64,000 bases of DNA from NCBI GenBank assembly GCA_003149575.1, contig QCWG01000001.1:1425387-1489386 (forward strand), given 5' to 3'. The stretch comes from Altererythrobacter sp. XM-24bin4. Its GTDB lineage: Bacteria; Pseudomonadota; Alphaproteobacteria; Sphingomonadales; Sphingomonadaceae. The position numbers and the translations under genes were made by a program. How positions within the stretch are numbered: the stretch's first letter is position 1; the number at the start of each line of letters is the position of its first letter. Below the pieces are notes generated by a model. It saw only the letters and a list, made by a program, of their open reading frames with translations. It was not told the origin of the DNA and made no database searches. Below are positions 52,434-63,129 of the stretch, piece by piece.

Positions 52434-53423
52434 ATGAAGAGGGGCGCTTTTTTCTCAATTGGTTTGGCAGCAGCGGTGGCGATCACAGCACCGGCGCTGG
52501 CACAAGAAGCGTCCACATCAGAAGACAACGCCTCCACTCATAGCGCGCGGTGGCCCAGCCTCGGCTCGGGCTCCACGCCACAAGACATGCAGCAGAGCCT
52601 GGAACAAGGGCCAGAGCTTAACCGCAATCTTTCCGCGCTCGATCTGCTCGAGCAGCGCCGAAGGCTGGACAGCGCTCTCGCAGCAATTGCGCCGCAGCGG
52701 GCGGGGCAGGTCGATGCATATGTCGTCGCGATCGCGCTCGACAGCGATCCGGTATTCGCTCGCGAGGCGCGCGAAGTCGGTGAGGTATTGAAGCATCGCT
52801 ACAACGCCCAGGACCGGACGCTGGTTCTCGCCGGGCCTGACGGTGAAGATGATGGCCTGCCGCGCGGTTCGATCCGCTCGCTTTTGATCGCGCTCGCCAG
52901 CATCGCTGAAAAGATGGACCCGGCTGAAGACGTGCTGGTGCTCTATTCTACCAGCCACGGACTGCCACAAGGTCTGGCCTATCACTACGAAGATAGCGGC
53001 TATGGCGTGCTATCGCCCAAACTGCTGAAAGACACCTTCGCAGAGCTAGGAATCGAGAAACGCTTGCTGCTGCTCTCGGCATGCTACTCCGGAGTTTTCG
53101 TGCCAAAACTCGCAGGCGAGAACACCGCGATCATCACCGCGTCGGCTGACAATCGCACGTCTTTTGGCTGTCAGCCAGACAATGACTGGACGTTTTTCGG
53201 AGACGCGCTGGTCAACCGCGCAATGCGAAAGCCGCAAACGCTACTGATGGCGCACCGCGAAGCTGTGCTTTCGATAGCGGATTGGGAATCACGCATGCGG
53301 TTGCCCGCCAGCTTGCCGCAGGCGCGGATCGGCAATGGGGCGATGAGCTGGCTCAGCGCAATCGAAGCGAGCATGCCGCGGGTCGCGACAGTGCCCACTG
53401 GCAAGCCGGCTATGGGCGAATAA
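52434..53423 (+). CDS. C13-family (legumain-like) cysteine peptidase, exported
   Basis: 329 residues. A signal peptide (MKRGAFFSIGLAAAVAITAPA, cleavage after LAQ) is followed by a linker rich in Ser, Asp and Glu (to about 60). The peptidase C13 domain has the catalytic His in VLVLYSTSHGLPQGLAY (about 174) and Cys in LLLLSACYSGVFVPKLA (about 215), the caspase-like clan CD arrangement. Legumain-type enzymes cut after Asn or Asp; bacterial members are scarcely studied. It follows the unknown membrane protein by 47 bases and may be in the sdh transcript. Confidence 0.87.
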   Translation: MKRGAFFSIGLAAAVAITAPALAQEASTSEDNASTHSARWPSLGSGSTPQDMQQSLEQGPELNRNLSALDLLEQRRRLDSALAAIAPQRAGQVDAYVVAIALDSDPVFAREAREVGEVLKHRYNAQDRTLVLAGPDGEDDGLPRGSIRSLLIALASIAEKMDPAEDVLVLYSTSHGLPQGLAYHYEDSGYGVLSPKLLKDTFAELGIEKRLLLLSACYSGVFVPKLAGENTAIITASADNRTSFGCQPDNDWTFFGDALVNRAMRKPQTLLMAHREAVLSIADWESRMRLPASLPQARIGNGAMSWLSAIEASMPRVATVPTGKPAMGE

Positions 53424-53425
53424 AA

Positions 53426-54970
53426 CTATTCTGCCGCGTCAACGCGCCGCACATTTACGATCTCAATTGGCTTCGCAAGCATCTGGCCTTTGAGGAAGCC
53501 TTCGCCTTTGTCCGGATCGGTGGGCGTAGCGTGAATTGCGTGAACGACATCAATCCCGCCCACTACATAGCCAAACACGGCAAAGCCGGGGCGGCGACCG
53601 GGGTCATCAGATTCCGGATAGGCATCCAGCCCGCGTTGATCGCGGATCATGATCGAGAAGTCACCTGTCGCGCTGCCCGGTTCAAACCGCGCCATCGACA
53701 GTGCGCCATCGGTGTGGCTGAGCCCGGTTTCATTGGTCGGTTCGTGAGTAATGCCGTCAAGTATCCGTCGCGGATCGTTTTGTGTTCCACATTGCAGGAA
53801 GCCGCTCAGCTCCTGGCCGCCTGTCACCCGCATCGCGCGATAGCATTTGGTGTTGTCGTATCGATCTTCATCGACATAGCGCAGGAAGTTGGCGGCAGTA
53901 ATCGGTGCGCGTTCAGTCTCGAGCGAGACCGTGATGTCACCCATGGAAGTTTCCAGCACGACCAGTTCGGTTGCATAGACCTTTGGCGGGACGCCCGGAG
54001 CAGTCGCGGCGCGCTGACTGACCTGAAATTTCATCAGCAAGGTCCGCTGATCGCTGGAGAAATTGTTGTCTGATACAATGTAGAGAAAGGTCTCTTCGCC
54101 TTCTTCGCGCACCGCGATCCCTTCGAAATTGTCGATCGAAAGCGACGTGTCCCAGACGGCGAGTGTCTCATCCAGTCCGTCCGGACCGATTGCGATGATT
54201 GCAGCCGAATTTCCGAGTTCCCGAGACCAGCTGCGGAAGAGTACGAAACACACACCATTGCTCGCGCAATCGGCATCGGTCGGGACACCTCCGCGCGTGT
54301 CCAGCGGAGCTGGGGGCTCGAGCTCGAAATTGACTAGACCAACATTGTCTTTCAGCACACAGTTTGGCTGCGCTTCGCCCGCCCATTCGCCGCACGCAAG
54401 GTAGCCGTTCGACGTTACTGCCAGCGTTTCCAGACCGCTGTTTGATGGCGCATTGGCAACATGCGTGACGGCCTCATAGGCGGCAGGTTCCGCTGGCCCC
54501 GCCAAGCTGGCATAGCGCCAAACTCGGTGATCCTGTTCAAACGATACCAGCCAGCCACCATCGCTAGAGCGGGTTATCGCTTCGGCATCGCTGTCGGCTT
54601 TCCCGCGCAGGGGCTTTCCACGCTCGTCATTCAGTGCGCCGACTTCGATCTCGATCAAATCGACGAGTGTGCCGCGGATCTCGTCTGTTTCGATGGTCAA
54701 CCAGCGCCCGTCATCCATCACGCCAACCAAATGTCCGTCGTGCCATTCCAGGCCCGATATCCCGCCGATTTCCAGTTCGCCGGCTTCGATTTCCAGACCG
54801 CCACGATAGATCAGCTCACCGAGTTTGACGTTGTCGGCATCATTGGGGTCAAGCGAAACCGGCAAGGTCTCGGGCATCACTGTGCCTGTTTCCGCGAAGG
54901 AGGGGGCGTGCATAACAGCGGCCGTTGCCGCAACGCCGAATGCGAGTGGGAGTGCTAACTTCCAAGTCAT
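53426..54970 (-). CDS. Fusion of phytase-like esterase domain and cyclophilin-type peptidyl-prolyl isomerase
   Basis: 514 residues with a signal peptide (MTWKLALPLAFGVAATAAVM, cleavage after SFAE). Residues 50-335 match the 'esterase-like activity of phytase' beta-propeller (GGISGLEWHDGHLVGVMDDG, then SDAEAITRSSDGGWLVSFEQ and FEGIAVREEGEETFLYIVSD). A short linker (ATAPGVPPK) leads to a cyclophilin domain (about 348-514: VVLETSMGDITVSLETERAP, then TAANFLRYVDEDRY, GALSMARFEPGSATGDFSIM and FAVFGYVVGGIDVV). The fusion is in one frame with no sign of a joined error. It is periplasmic or secreted. Role unknown. It is divergent from blaI by 149 bases containing the operator-like pair. Confidence 0.85.
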   Translation of the reverse strand: MTWKLALPLAFGVAATAAVMHAPSFAETGTVMPETLPVSLDPNDADNVKLGELIYRGGLEIEAGELEIGGISGLEWHDGHLVGVMDDGRWLTIETDEIRGTLVDLIEIEVGALNDERGKPLRGKADSDAEAITRSSDGGWLVSFEQDHRVWRYASLAGPAEPAAYEAVTHVANAPSNSGLETLAVTSNGYLACGEWAGEAQPNCVLKDNVGLVNFELEPPAPLDTRGGVPTDADCASNGVCFVLFRSWSRELGNSAAIIAIGPDGLDETLAVWDTSLSIDNFEGIAVREEGEETFLYIVSDNNFSSDQRTLLMKFQVSQRAATAPGVPPKVYATELVVLETSMGDITVSLETERAPITAANFLRYVDEDRYDNTKCYRAMRVTGGQELSGFLQCGTQNDPRRILDGITHEPTNETGLSHTDGALSMARFEPGSATGDFSIMIRDQRGLDAYPESDDPGRRPGFAVFGYVVGGIDVVHAIHATPTDPDKGEGFLKGQMLAKPIEIVNVRRVDAAE

Positions 54971-55040
54971 TCATCCATCGTGGTCGGTCGCTCGCAGAGT
55001 TTCAACCCCTGTAATTCGCCGTTAATCCACGCTTCGTGTT

Positions 55041-55071
55041 TACAGCCGTAGTCGAAATGACTACAGACGTA
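55041..55071. promoter_or_regulatory. Paired BlaI-type operator-like sites
   Basis: TACAGCCGTA (55041-55050) and TACAGACGTA (55062-55071) each match the TACA-N-GTA half-site symmetry of BlaI/MecI/CopY operators (TACA/TGTA). Their starts are 21 bases apart, two helical turns. Between them GTAGTC (55049-55054) and GACTAC (55060-55065) form a perfect inverted repeat. They lie 49 bases upstream of blaI, where an autorepressor would bind, and would also overlap the promoter of the divergent fusion gene. Confidence 0.65.
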
Positions 55072-55119
55072 ATCGTCAATTCGTAACCGGACTGATCGAG
55101 CGTCTATCGGAGGAAGCAA

Positions 55120-55509
55120 ATGGGACAGGGTAGTAACGCAAAACCCGAACGCATTAGCGAGGCCGAGCACGCCGTTATGGAGGTGCTGTGGGATAGAAAC
55201 CCGGCAACCGCCGCTGATGTATCGGATGCGCTGGCACAGAATCGCGGCTGGAGCCTGGCCACAGTCAAAACGCTGCTCGGGCGACTGGTCCAGAAGCACG
55301 CCATTTCTGCCAGTCCAGACGGCAGGCGCTATCTCTATACGCCGCTGATCGAACGCTCGGACTATATCGGAACCGAGACCAAAAGGCTGGTCGACCGGCT
55401 GTTCGGAGGTCGTGCCGCCTCACTGGTGGCGCATCTGGCCGATCAGGAAGCGCTGACAGAAGATGATCTGACGGAAATCGAAGCCCTGTTGAAGGAGCTG
55501 AAACGATGA
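55120..55509 (+). CDS. blaI: BlaI/MecI/CopY-family transcriptional repressor
   Basis: 129 residues. The winged helix-turn-helix spans about 10-80 (ISEAEHAVMEVLWDRNPATA, then GWSLATVKTLLGRLVQKHAI), followed by the dimerisation helices (about 85-125). The usual cleavage site of BlaI lies near residue 100 in the family. It would bind the operator pair just upstream and be cleaved when the M56 sensor fires. The stop overlaps the ATG of the M56 gene (ATGATG), so translation is coupled. Confidence 0.92.
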   Translation: MGQGSNAKPERISEAEHAVMEVLWDRNPATAADVSDALAQNRGWSLATVKTLLGRLVQKHAISASPDGRRYLYTPLIERSDYIGTETKRLVDRLFGGRAASLVAHLADQEALTEDDLTEIEALLKELKR

Positions 55510-57110
55510 TGGACTGGCTAACCGATACATTCATTTGGACCGCGGCATTGATTGCGCTGGTCCTGCTCATTCGTCGCCCTGTGGCACGGCATTTCGGCCC
55601 CCAAGCGGCCTATGCACTGTGGGCTCTGCCGCTGATAAGGTTGGTTCTCCCCCCACTGACCTTGCCCGCATGGATGGCGCCGTCGGAGCCAGCAACTGCG
55701 CTTGCGACTGAGGTTGAGCCACTTGATGTCTTTGCGCTTGTCGCTGAGCGCAACGCTATTCCTTTTCCAGGGTCAGACGTAACTCTCAGCCAGCCCTTGC
55801 TGCCGTTCAATCTTTCAGAATTCGTGCTGGCCATTTGGCTGGCGGGTGCTGCGACATTCCTTTTCCTGCGCTTCCGAGCCTATAGCCGGATGCGGCAGGA
55901 GCTTCTGGCCGAAGGACGCGACGTCGGCCAGGCCGGCAAGGTGCGCCTGATCGAAACCCCTTTGACCAGCGCGCCCCTTGCCTTCGGCGTAATCGACAAA
56001 GTTGTGGCGCTGCCCGAAGGTTTCATGGCCAGTTGGTATCGTGATGCCCGAGATCTGGCGCTGGCACATGAGTTGGCACACCACAAAGGGCACGATCTTG
56101 CAATTAACATGGCTGTGCAGCCCCTGTTCGCGCTGCATTGGTTTAATCCACTTGGCTATCTTGGCTGGCTCGCGCTGCGGCGTGACCAGGAAGCGGCCTG
56201 TGACGCGCGCGTGATTGCGAAGCGCGCGAAGGAAGACCGCGCGACCTATGCGCAAGTGATCGCCAGTTTTGCTGCCGGACCCAATGTAGCGCTTGCTGCG
56301 CCGATGACGTGCCCAGTGCTCGGGGACAAATCGATAATTCACCGTTTGAGGAGCCTTAAAATGAACAATCAATCAACTAAGCGCCGCATGGCTGGACGCG
56401 GCCTATTGGCTGCTGCCTTGGTTGCCTTGCCGCTAACGGCGACTGTCACCTATGCTGACAGCACGAGCTTTGACGATGTGTTTGCCGATGTGCCGGCACC
56501 GCCAGCACCTCCAACACCCCCGACACCAGGTACAGCCGTTCCGGCACCTCCTGCGCCGCCCGCTGCGCCCGAAGCGCCCGAGGCTCCTGAAGTTGAAGAG
56601 AACGTATGGGTTGAGAAAGACGAAGACGGCGTTGAACGCCGATATGTCATCCGCAAGGCGGTGCATGTCGATGGCCAGCATGACGACCACGAGGTGCATC
56701 GCGAAGTAAAGAAGTACCGCATCGTGCGGGTCCAGCGCGAAGGTGAAGGGCTTACCGAAGAGGAAAAGCGCGAAATCCTGATCGAAGTTCGCGAAGGATT
56801 AGAAGAAGCGGATGTTGCTCTGAGGGAAGCATTCGCAGAACAGAGCATGGCGTTCGCAGAGCTAGAGAATGGTGAAGGCAACTTCACCGTTGTTGAAGTC
56901 AACTGCCACACCGGAGGCAAGGGCAAGAAGCTGATGCAGGACGGTGAGGAAGTGACTGTGATTTGCAAAAGTGAAATCATGGCCAGCGCACTGTCCGGAC
57001 TGAAAGAGGCTCGCAAAGCGCTCGCAAGCAACCCCGAAATGCCAGAGGATATGCTCAAGGAAGTGATCGCGGCATTGGATGAGAAGATCGCAGCCTGGGA
57101 AAGCCGCTGA
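55506..57110 (+). CDS. BlaR1-like M56 metallopeptidase sensor without a penicillin-binding domain
   Basis: 534 residues. Membrane spans at about 10-25, 35-55 and 105-125. The zinc motif ALAHELAHHKGHD (HELAH at 188-192) and DQEAACDARVIAKR (the third ligand region) form the cytoplasmic-facing M56 protease. A fourth span follows (about 290-310, GLLAAALVALPLTATV). The C-terminal part is not the beta-lactam-binding domain of BlaR1. It is Pro-rich (about 325-355, PAPPAPPTPP), then a charged helix region (about 370-530) with two Cys (VNCHTGG and VICKSE). So the signal it senses is likely not a beta-lactam. Cotranscribed with blaI; terminator at 57158. Confidence 0.87.
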   Translation: MMDWLTDTFIWTAALIALVLLIRRPVARHFGPQAAYALWALPLIRLVLPPLTLPAWMAPSEPATALATEVEPLDVFALVAERNAIPFPGSDVTLSQPLLPFNLSEFVLAIWLAGAATFLFLRFRAYSRMRQELLAEGRDVGQAGKVRLIETPLTSAPLAFGVIDKVVALPEGFMASWYRDARDLALAHELAHHKGHDLAINMAVQPLFALHWFNPLGYLGWLALRRDQEAACDARVIAKRAKEDRATYAQVIASFAAGPNVALAAPMTCPVLGDKSIIHRLRSLKMNNQSTKRRMAGRGLLAAALVALPLTATVTYADSTSFDDVFADVPAPPAPPTPPTPGTAVPAPPAPPAAPEAPEAPEVEENVWVEKDEDGVERRYVIRKAVHVDGQHDDHEVHREVKKYRIVRVQREGEGLTEEEKREILIEVREGLEEADVALREAFAEQSMAFAELENGEGNFTVVEVNCHTGGKGKKLMQDGEEVTVICKSEIMASALSGLKEARKALASNPEMPEDMLKEVIAALDEKIAAWESR

Positions 57111-57157
57111 TTCGCATGAGCTAGACCCATCATACTGTTTAAGCGGTGTGATGAATG

Positions 57158-57193
57158 AAGAGCGGGGGTGTACGGCCACTCCCGCTCTTTTTT
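57158..57193 (+). terminator. Intrinsic terminator after the M56 gene
   Basis: AAGAGCGGG (57158-57166) pairs with CCCGCTCTT (57181-57189) and is followed by six Ts (57188-57193), 47 bases after the stop codon. It separates the blaI-M56 transcript from creD. Confidence 0.92.
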
Positions 57194-57213
57194 GTTTGAG
57201 CTGCTTTTGGGCA

Positions 57214-57255
57214 TTCACAACACATTCATTTCATCGTTCACAAAGCACGGTTCAT
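57214..57255 (+). promoter_or_regulatory. cre-tag-like repeats upstream of creD
   Basis: TTCAC (57214-57218), six bases, TTCAT (57225-57229), then TTCAT (57230-57234), TTCAC (57237-57241) and TTCAT (57251-57255). The first pair differs at one base from the cre/blr tag TTCAC-N6-TTCAC bound by CreB or BlrA in enterobacteria and aeromonads. It lies 24-65 bases upstream of the creD start, where a promoter site would be expected. The region is T/C-rich, so chance repeats are possible. Confidence 0.4.
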
Positions 57256-57278
57256 CGCAAGAATAAGGAGGATAAACT

Positions 57279-58664
57279 GTGCTGAAGAACCGCTCCCCGG
57301 GAATGAAACTACTGATTGTCGCGCTGATAGGTGGCGCGCTGATCATACCGTTATTGTTTGTCTACGGATTGGTCAGTGATCGCCAGCATCAGGCGCGGGA
57401 AGCGCAGGATTCGATAGCTGCAGGTTGGGCCGGCGCACAGGCCGTTTCCGGCCCGGTGCTGATGCTACCCTACAGTAAAGATCACATCACAACGGAGATT
57501 GTCGAAGGCCGAAGCATGCGCCGTACCGTGCGCGAGCGGCACAATCTCTTTCTCTCTCCGGAACAGCAAAGCGTTGAAGCGCAGATTGACCCGCAGGTGA
57601 AGGAGCGCGCGATCTATCGTTCGGTTCTGTATCGCGCTTCAATCAACGGTTCGGCACGTTTCGAATTGCCCGATGATCTGACCGGGCTTGGCATCGATCG
57701 TCAGGACCTGTTGCTTGATGAAGCTGAGTTGCGTTTCGGAATGAGCGATCCCCGCGGTTTGCAAACTGATGCGCGGCTGGTTGTAAACGGAGACGCAATG
57801 GAGCTGCACCCAGGGCGCGGGCCAGCCTCAAGCGGTGGGACAGGTGTACATGCTATGCTCGATTGGACGGGTGGTGAGACACTTGACCTGCAATGGTCCT
57901 ACAGCCTGCGCGGCAGCCGCAGCTTCGGCTTTGTACCGCGCGGTCAGTCGACTGAATGGACCGTCACTTCAAGCTGGGCGCACCCGAGCTTCGTTGGCAG
58001 CTTTCTGCCTGATGCCGATGCCGCGCAGATCAGTGACGAGGGTTTCTCCGCTAGCTGGTCCATCTCCAATCTGGCCCTGGGGCAACCGATGGTATCGCAA
58101 AATGACTTCGGCCCGGCACAGTTCGAGCAATCACCGGTCGAGGTTGCAAGTGACAATGGTGCCAGCAAAATGGCGACGATCCGATTGGTCGAGCCGGTTG
58201 ATCTCTACAGCCTGGTTGACCGTTCCGTGAAGTATGGCTTCCTGTTCATCGGCTTCACATTTCTGGCCTTCCTGATGTTTGACATTATTGGCGGCGCGAA
58301 AGTTGCGAGCGCAGAATATCTTCTGAGTGGCGCTGGCCTGATCCTTTTCTTCGTTATGCTGCTGGCATTTGCAGAGATGATCGGGTTCGCTTGGGCATAC
58401 ATTGTCGCCAGTGGTGCGATTATCGGATTGCTCACCAGCTATAGCGCTGCGGTGCTGAAAAGCTGGCGCCGCGCGAGCATGATCGGTGGCTTGCTCGTGG
58501 GCCTGTATGTCATGCTCTACGTACTGCTGAACCTCGAAGGCCTATCGCTAGTGATCGGTTCAGTGATCCTGTTCTTTGCACTGGCAGGGGTGATGTACAC
58601 GACCCGCGATATCGACTGGAGCGATGGTGGTAGCAACGACGGCGAAGTGACTGGCTACGCCTGA
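57279..58664 (+). CDS. creD: Cell envelope integrity inner-membrane protein CreD
   Basis: 461 residues from the GTG at 57279, which follows AAGGAGG by 9 bases. The N-terminal span is at about 10-32 (MKLLIVALIGGALIIPLLFV). The periplasmic beta-rich CreD domain (about 35-310) contains GPVLMLPYSKD and SWAHPSFVGSFLPD. Five or six C-terminal spans follow (about 330-450). CreD marks envelope stress and beta-lactam responses in gammaproteobacteria. Here it lies just after blaI and the M56 sensor, behind its own terminator-separated leader with cre-tag-like repeats. A terminator follows at 58691. Confidence 0.9.
   Translation: MLKNRSPGMKLLIVALIGGALIIPLLFVYGLVSDRQHQAREAQDSIAAGWAGAQAVSGPVLMLPYSKDHITTEIVEGRSMRRTVRERHNLFLSPEQQSVEAQIDPQVKERAIYRSVLYRASINGSARFELPDDLTGLGIDRQDLLLDEAELRFGMSDPRGLQTDARLVVNGDAMELHPGRGPASSGGTGVHAMLDWTGGETLDLQWSYSLRGSRSFGFVPRGQSTEWTVTSSWAHPSFVGSFLPDADAAQISDEGFSASWSISNLALGQPMVSQNDFGPAQFEQSPVEVASDNGASKMATIRLVEPVDLYSLVDRSVKYGFLFIGFTFLAFLMFDIIGGAKVASAEYLLSGAGLILFFVMLLAFAEMIGFAWAYIVASGAIIGLLTSYSAAVLKSWRRASMIGGLLVGLYVMLYVLLNLEGLSLVIGSVILFFALAGVMYTTRDIDWSDGGSNDGEVTGYA

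Positions 58665-61611: not shown

Positions 61612-63129
<1,518 letters not shown>

Follow-up and report, generated by a model that had tools for sequence, protein, structure and literature searches.

The sensor domain of BlaR1 is related to class D β-lactamases. BlaR1 of Staphylococcus aureus is reported to cut the repressor BlaI directly, between Asn101 and Phe102 (PMC9834060), and an M56 protease that serves a signal other than a β-lactam is already known in PetP of cyanobacteria (PMC7896320). Here we describe a locus of Altererythrobacter sp. XM-24bin4, in which a blaI-type repressor gene is followed by the gene of an M56 (BlaR1-like) sensor and then by creD. The locus lies in a 64,000-nucleotide stretch of contig QCWG01000001.1 (the whole of this stretch is called the window), in a genome of 2.53 Mb in which the searches found a single BlaI gene and a single M56 gene; the sensor has its nearest named relatives in Erythrobacter, Altererythrobacter and Pontixanthobacter. 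An earlier note on the window had proposed from its letters that the sensor lacks a β-lactam-binding domain, that the three genes form one signalling module, and that the sensor may answer envelope damage, a metal or a peptide in place of a drug. Our favoured explanation, to which we give a probability of roughly 0.55, is a BlaI/M56 circuit in which a two-cysteine module replaces the penicillin-binding domain, and which reads the state of the periplasm and not β-lactams. Pfam and NCBIfam assign the same family to each of the three genes:

55120 to 55509, + strand: blaI-type repressor of 129 amino acids (aa), Pfam PF03965 (Penicillinase_R), 119.7 bits against a cut-off of 22.6.
55506 to 57110, + strand: M56 (BlaR1-like) membrane metalloprotease sensor of 534 aa, Pfam PF05569 (Peptidase_M56) over aa 8–282, 143 bits against a cut-off of 31.
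57279 to 58664, + strand: creD, inner-membrane protein, Pfam PF06123, 401.1 bits (cut-off 23), and NCBIfam CreD, 403.5 bits (cut-off 275).

The blaI and sensor genes overlap by 4 bp, and blaI stood directly 5′ of the sensor gene in 30/30 loci (this one included) and in 76/76 readable database loci. The database loci are the best 80 of 577 candidate stretches and are biased to close relatives; 76 of them were readable, the sensor not having been extracted from L086, L145, L157 and L159. Residue counts refer to a set of 75 sensors, namely that of the window and those of 74 of the 80 loci, in which close relatives are again favoured. Alignment A2, from which L112 and L140 were omitted as near copies, was not selected for cysteines; alignment A3 omits L104 and L154, whose cysteine spacing falls outside 15–25 residues, and alignment A4 was selected for two cysteines, so that its invariance proves nothing. 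The parts of the sensor to which the argument refers are:

56067 to 56081, + strand: HELAH zinc motif, aa 188–192, with H188, E189 and H192 invariant in 75/75 sensors.
56388 to 56459, + strand: fourth hydrophobic span (TM4, the fourth transmembrane span), aa 295–318, given by hydropathy at 295–315 and 299–318 and by a model helix at 291–311, which would lead to the periplasm.
56466 to 56747, + strand: Pro-rich linker and variable charged region, aa 321–414, with low mean pairwise identity (taken over aa 321–440).
56748 to 57107, + strand: two-cysteine helical module, aa 415–534, with a long helix, a three-strand hairpin that carries C467 and C487, and a helix pair.

The membrane and protease part is that of a BlaR1-type protein. 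As the earlier note had read it, the sensor keeps HELAH and its hydrophobic spans, which are four (aa 2–28, 35–55, 98–125 and 295–318), and a candidate for the third zinc ligand, E229 within DQEAACDA, is invariant in 75/75 sensors, so it belongs to family M56 as a membrane protein with an HExxH motif and a distal Glu. Its best Foldseek matches were S. aureus BlaR1 structures (8exq, 8exp and 8exr), and 8exr_A superposed on the membrane and protease part with a template-modelling score (TM-score) of 0.67 by target length. The cytoplasmic loop before TM4 (aa 262–284, 56289–56357, LAAPMTCPVLGDKSIIHRLRSL) is nearly invariant, including C269 (75/75 sensors), and by its position should correspond to the autocleavage loop of BlaR1. 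A second, distant M56/BlaI group of the same family (L274–L279) has very different C-termini, with repeats and coiled coils, and no such operators as are described below.

The likeness to BlaR1 ends behind TM4. In the last 214 aa there are 18 Pro, 47 Asp/Glu, 25 Lys/Arg and no Cys besides C467 and C487, which agrees with the Pro-rich and charged domain with two cysteines of the earlier note, and family search, motifs and predicted secondary structure all agree with its claim that the penicillin-binding domain is missing. NCBIfam blaR1_generic aligned only aa 9–320 of the sensor, to model positions 5–334 of 585, and scored 90.7 bits where the cut-off is 400, so that NCBIfam does not assign the protein to β-lactam sensing; no Pfam transpeptidase or β-lactamase match was seen in the sensor up to E = 1. 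Within aa 321–534 there is no KTG or KSG and no SxN or YxN, and one SxxK is present at 497. The predicted C-terminus is mostly helical, and the C-terminal penicillin-binding sensor domain that marks BlaR1 and MecR1 is not recognisable in it. A hidden penicillin-binding fold was considered and rejected, since none was seen by Pfam, by NCBIfam, by motifs or in two AlphaFold models, and the structure prediction for which the note had asked thus revealed no β-lactam-binding fold.

Two residues stand out in the part that takes the place of this domain. C467 and C487 are the sole invariant residues behind TM4 (75/75 sensors), in a module whose mean pairwise identity of 31% puts it among the most variable parts of the sensor; over aa 321–440 the identity is 32%, compared with 69% in the protease core. 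The cysteines are 19–22 residues apart in 73/75 sensors, and among 34 more distant sensors at least two cysteines were present behind the protease in 31 and none in three (L240, L245 and L253). The two cysteines most likely form a C467–C487 disulfide, and the signal is therefore most likely a periplasmic redox or folding state, or a protein partner, and not a β-lactam. Copper or zinc would be another conceivable signal, as has been proposed for PetP, and either the two cysteines or cytoplasmic C269 would then bind the metal; in our view this is unlikely. The PetRP precedent speaks for such a function, as does the invariance of C269 and both periplasmic cysteines in 75/75 sensors, and BlaI scored 97.6 bits with the CopY/TcrY model, which is below its cut-off of 121.95. 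The module, however, has no conserved His, the cysteines in 73/75 sensors keep the distance given above and lie on a predicted hairpin, and there is no metal gene among the five typed genes of the window.

The searches gave no confident family for the module. No match to NCBIfam was obtained with 36 members, no PDB sequence came below E 0.6, and the C-terminal model found no PDB structure by Foldseek at E ≤ 0.001 (best 0.14). VIA-align 2 over 988 Foldseek candidates gave a best Z of 5.3 (Bacillus subtilis PadR, 66 residues, 2.8 Å, tied by a dynein chain), which is no more than common helical arrangements give; that a family is missing from the list of 988 excludes nothing. Weak Pfam matches of 73 members at E ≤ 0.1 were spread over 71 families, of which HAAS was the commonest (12/73, best E 2.5e-4) and the rest had three members or fewer each; these were rejected as family assignments. 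The module core alone (36 members, E ≤ 0.01) matched three Pfam families with one member each, and HAAS was not among them. In the AlphaFold model the module has a mean predicted local distance difference test score (pLDDT) of 80.4. A profile of the module matched 121/246 Sphingomonadales genomes, and among 385 genomes drawn from the class it matched seven, five of which belong to the family itself and two of which are marginal (E 5.4e-4 and 8.4e-4, helices only); this wider survey scored at most 13 first-look candidates per genome, so that distant members may be missed. The module was thus found almost only in Sphingomonadales among the genomes searched.

The module also occurs as a separate protein. 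Some matches of its profile are small proteins with a signal-peptide-like start, and 20 loci were fetched from the profile list because the matching frame was short or the sensor distant. A separate two-cysteine gene stands beside blaI-M56 in 7/20 of these, either 5′ of the operator pair (L221, L223, L224 and L225) or 3′ of the sensor gene (L227, L232 and L233), and L253 of the more distant set is an eighth such locus. The other fetched loci have a separate two-cysteine gene with no blaI in 6 kb (L220, L222, L226, L228 and L229), a match to the helices only (L230, L231 and L234) or a module fused to M56 (L235–L239). The separate Sphingomonadales proteins share with the sensor the arrangement of cysteine hairpin followed by two helices, and differ from it in having a signal-peptide-like start in place of the M56 domain; ten of them gave no Pfam match over cut-off. 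The sensors of L221, L223, L224, L225, L227 and L253 have no Cys behind TM4 and end in a long charged stretch, which suggests that the separate two-cysteine protein may act on a cysteine-free sensor. Since the module is fused in some loci and separate in others, it can evidently be provided in cis or in trans. Two of the two-cysteine proteins (L226:3035–3919 and L227:2346–3218) have an extra C-terminal part, alike by eye and without a Pfam match, and L235 holds tandem blaI-M56 pairs in one genome, in which one sensor has the module and the other does not.

The second main element is the operator pair, which lies upstream of blaI as the earlier note had placed it, starts at 55038 and 55059, and is conserved with blaI in dozens of genomes:

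55021 to 55037, + strand: degenerate direct repeat GTTAATCCACGCTTCGT, just 5′ of operator 1, with 2 mismatches to the consensus of the relatives.
55038 to 55053, + strand: operator 1, GTTTACAGCCGTAGTC, in which TTTACA (55039–55044) is the probable −35 element.
55059 to 55074, + strand: operator 2, GACTACAGACGTAATC, 21 bp from operator 1, in which TACAGA (55062–55067) is the probable −10 element.

A spacer of 17 bp separates TTTACA in dyad 1 from TACAGA in dyad 2, so the pair probably covers the operon's own promoter. The sequence YTACANNYGTARTC is present exactly twice in the genome, both times at blaI, and 17/19 exact sites in eight genomes are at blaI; at the two off-locus exact sites in relatives (L050 and L051) no gene was recognisable by eye. 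Dyad pairs 20–23 bp apart were found in 71/80 database loci and a single dyad in the other nine (≤3 mismatches each). Among 34 more distant orthologous loci, 24 had two sites, nine had one and one had none (≤2 mismatches), and a further 20 loci gave 23 dyads compared with 0.4 in shuffles; six loci with only remotely related BlaI/M56 had no dyads. The operator consensus leaves out 11/81 regions, which lacked upstream DNA or had more than 7 mismatches at 21-bp spacing. A Penicillinase_R domain together with TACAnnTGTA-type dyads is what characterises the BlaI/MecI/CopY repressors, and BlaI is predicted to bind these sites. The repeat before operator 1 often reads TTCAN-N6-TTCA in relatives; this N6 repeat is present in 40/79 blaI upstream regions, compared with one at most for each of the other spacings between 2 and 13 and 0.09 in shuffles. 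A wider BlaI regulon is not supported: the genome has two exact sites, and a tolerance of ≤2 mismatches gave 226 places on both strands, compared with 494 for the reversed pattern.

These sites bear on whether the sensor might report cell-wall damage or β-lactams indirectly, for example through a module that binds muropeptides or cell-wall fragments. BlaI-type control and a creD neighbour would suit this explanation, an M23 peptidase gene of the same genome carries the N6 box, and a peptidoglycan fragment is reported to trigger β-lactam resistance in B. licheniformis (PMC3305447). Both exact operators are nevertheless at blaI, and no exact operator was found at a β-lactamase, low-affinity penicillin-binding protein or cell-wall gene; seven further places in the genome match with one mismatch and leave room for a weak site at such a gene. 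The Pfam and NCBIfam matches of the module include no family that binds the cell wall. We therefore think a cell-wall signal improbable.

The next question concerns the repressor as a substrate. MecI is the closest solved relative of BlaI, and a gap-free alignment puts H105-L106 on N101-F102 of MecI; Leu106 is kept in 55/55 BlaI relatives, whose site region reads A-[HQY]-L-A. This Leu aligns with the P1′ residue Phe102 of MecI/BlaI, which is nearly invariant as Phe in known BlaI. If the mechanism has been kept, the pocket of the protease should have changed too.

The operators may also serve a gene on the other strand:

53426 to 54970, − strand: protein with an esterase-like (phytase) domain and a cyclophilin-type prolyl isomerase domain (Pfam PF13449 and PF00160), with a signal-peptide-like start by eye.

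Of 81 loci, 20 have an opposite-strand cyclophilin frame whose start is exactly 68 bp away from operator 1, and in 32 the start is no more than 145 bp from the operators; the start is taken here as the farthest ATG of the frame and need not be the true one. A cyclophilin relative was present in 4/60 loci of a wider set. In many relatives the frame at this place is shorter and encodes a cyclophilin that lacks the esterase part, and its distance from the operator is often again 68 bp. The cyclophilin gene is thus a candidate for a second target of the operators, and the regulon may have gained it locally.

In the circuit that we favour, BlaI would sit in the absence of a signal on the two dyads over its own promoter, and possibly over the divergent cyclophilin start, so that the operon is off. 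A change in the periplasm would alter the two-cysteine module, and this would be passed through TM4 to the cytoplasmic zinc protease; the protease would then cut BlaI and free the promoter, and the operon, perhaps with the cyclophilin gene, would be expressed. Several observations weigh against this explanation. The cysteine pair is not indispensable, because the sensors of L240 and L245 lack both cysteines and the module profile matched no separate gene in their 9 kb. The hairpin that carries the pair is the least certain part of the predicted model (pLDDT 59–74). Cleavage of BlaI by this sensor is not assured, because of the Leu at the expected site. The frequencies given above mean that cyclophilin cannot be a general target, and in the window the repeat that precedes blaI is a degenerate N6 box.

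We next consider creD. The earlier note was right that blaI, the sensor gene and creD are adjacent in so far as blaI and the sensor gene overlap and creD comes next; creD is, however, set off by a gap of 168 bp that holds an intrinsic-terminator-like hairpin. The features of this gap are:

57157 to 57190, + strand: intrinsic-terminator-like hairpin with a T tail, 14 pairs of which 8 are G-C, between the sensor gene and creD.
57214 to 57229, + strand: cre/blr-tag-like box TTCACAACACATTCAT, TTCACN6TTCAT, which differs from the known tag in one base, the last.

The known cre/blr tag is reported as TTCACN6TTCAC, and in S. maltophilia TTCACN6TTCAA precedes creD by about 65–80 bp (PMC4689548). The search for the three-gene arrangement that the note had called for showed creD directly 3′ of the sensor gene, on the same strand and 132–195 bp away, in 22/76 loci; in 15/76 it is on the same strand and 3.5–6.2 kb upstream, a distance counted from the end of the sensor gene, and it was not found in the locus DNA examined for the other 39/76. 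The 22 loci and the window give 23 sensor–creD gaps. A hairpin of ≤ −13.8 kcal/mol before a T run is present in 16/23 of these, where it should be noted that the terminator scan as a whole came near the shuffle rate (4 found versus 3.2). TTCAN-N6-TTCA is present in 22/23 gaps and in 19/30 creD loci obtained by a family search, compared with 0.04 and 0.02 in shuffles, and the counts are not independent because the creD loci are related to each other. The box lies 60–79 bp before the matched creD start in 18/19 loci and 125 bp before it in L075. It is also present in 5/8 creD loci of genomes without a sensor match (G051, G054, G061, G064 and G092; the pattern is not in G009, G049 and G088). Other spacings from 2 to 14 gave 0–2 matches except for N11 (12/23 gaps and 5/30 loci), which the box leaves unexplained; a second conserved stretch stands beside the N6 box before creD (TTCATCG, CTCACAAAGCACG, TTCATCG; for example 57214–57265) and produces the N11 signal in the 12/23 gaps.

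Taken as one BlaI-controlled module, the three genes would give a different circuit, in which creD is co-transcribed with blaI and the sensor gene and is the output. The 22 and 15 loci with a same-strand creD behind or upstream of the sensor gene would fit this, as would the supporting role in envelope integrity that is reported for creD of S. maltophilia (PMC4689548). Yet of the 80 loci, none of the 38 in which creD is on the same strand has a BlaI-type site (≤3 mismatches) in the 300 bp that precede this gene, the terminator-like hairpins occupy most of the gaps, creD has its own box both in the gaps and in genomes without a sensor match, and in about half of the loci no creD was found in the DNA examined. 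We would give such a module only a small chance, and the reading of the three genes as one unit governed by BlaI was not supported. Because of its own box, the lack of a BlaI site, the gap hairpins and the box in genomes without a sensor match we read creD as separately controlled, and it is probably a neighbour that forms a separate transcription unit.

The creD box is probably read by a response regulator of the CreB/ChvI type. A search with E. coli CreB gave 15 places, of which the best five are all OmpR-type regulators, and none of the five scored over the CreB cut-off. The closest is encoded beside a phosphoenolpyruvate carboxykinase gene and a ChvG-like kinase gene (211.4 bits for the regulator against the CreB cut-off of 273; 326.2 for the kinase against the ChvG cut-off of 740), and the other four are PhoB and CtrA (both over their cut-offs), a PmrA/QseB-like protein and an orphan. 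In Caulobacter and Agrobacterium, ChvGI is reported to respond to stress on the envelope and the cell wall (PMC9731502, PMC9731437), and CreD is reported among the envelope genes that change on PBP1a depletion in Agrobacterium. The motif TGA-N8-TGA reported for CenR of Rhodobacter (PMC9275681) matches the core of the box, TCA-N8-TCA, in spacing, whereas TTGC-N3-GCAA, reported for Caulobacter ChvI (PMC9731502), does not fit it. A genome-wide regulon for the box was sought and not adopted: TTCAYN6TTCAK gave 19 exact matches (reversed control 6), of which 14 are inside called frames and five in gaps, and two of the five precede a frame within 250 bp, namely creD (65 bp) and the M23 peptidase gene (117 bp). 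A search for GTTCATCN5TTCAT that allowed 2 mismatches was uninformative, with 198 places.

From the likeness of the boxes before blaI and creD it is possible that one regulator is common to both. This leads to a bolder proposal, which we put forward tentatively and against the odds: the module might be an autonomous periplasmic signalling protein that acts on M56 proteases as a fused domain or as a secreted partner encoded beside blaI, and the blaI operon and creD might belong to one envelope-stress programme. The TTCAN-N6-TTCA box that both promoters carry in many relatives would then be read by a regulator of the CreB/ChvI/CenR type, and BlaI would act as a second lock on the blaI operon. 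If true, the module would represent a new kind of periplasmic input to proteases of the BlaR1 type, parallel to that of BlaR1.

In the neighbourhood, a gene that reads by eye as inosine monophosphate dehydrogenase (61657–63129, + strand) lies 3′ of the locus, and its cluster recurs in 45/81 neighbourhoods, so the locus occupies a stable chromosomal site. A C13 (legumain/caspase-like) peptidase gene lies 5′ of the locus (52434–53420, + strand), and its cluster is present in 25/81 neighbourhoods. A literature search, whose coverage did not extend to subscription journals, gave no paper on this sensor among the matches listed.

The M56 part steers automatic annotation of such proteins to ‘β-lactam sensor’, and the part that would meet the signal differs; blaI-blaR1-creD neighbourhoods should not be read as resistance operons. 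A large share of one bacterial order has a fast-evolving outer domain with two fixed residues, which is a separate protein in some relatives, and the question of what non-β-lactam proteases of the BlaR1 type sense becomes testable on two cysteines, one promoter and one repressor.

Compared with known systems, the locus has the likeness of BlaR1/MecR1-BlaI/MecI of S. aureus and B. licheniformis in its membrane M56 HExxH protease, its adjacent BlaI-family repressor, its TACAnnTGTA-type dyads over the promoter and a gene transcribed divergently from the operators, like blaZ in S. aureus. It is unlike them in the outer domain, where a two-cysteine helical module stands and the penicillin-binding domain is absent, in the gene order, with blaI first, in the Leu in place of Phe at the cleavage site, and in having no exact operator at a β-lactamase gene in the genome. 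The likeness to CreBC-CreD/BlrAB of E. coli, Aeromonas and S. maltophilia lies in creD, which is preceded by TTCAN-N6-TTCA as by the cre/blr tag, whereas the neighbourhood of the window has no creBC and the best CreB relative stays below its cut-off (211.4 of 273). PetR/PetP of cyanobacteria, likened here by description, similarly joins a BlaI-family regulator with a BlaR1-family protease and a signal other than a β-lactam, but is reported to answer copper and to control petE and petJ (PMC7896320). The sensor is best regarded as a variant of the BlaR1 type that is limited to its lineage, and its candidate signal is a partner protein or the state of the periplasm in redox or folding.

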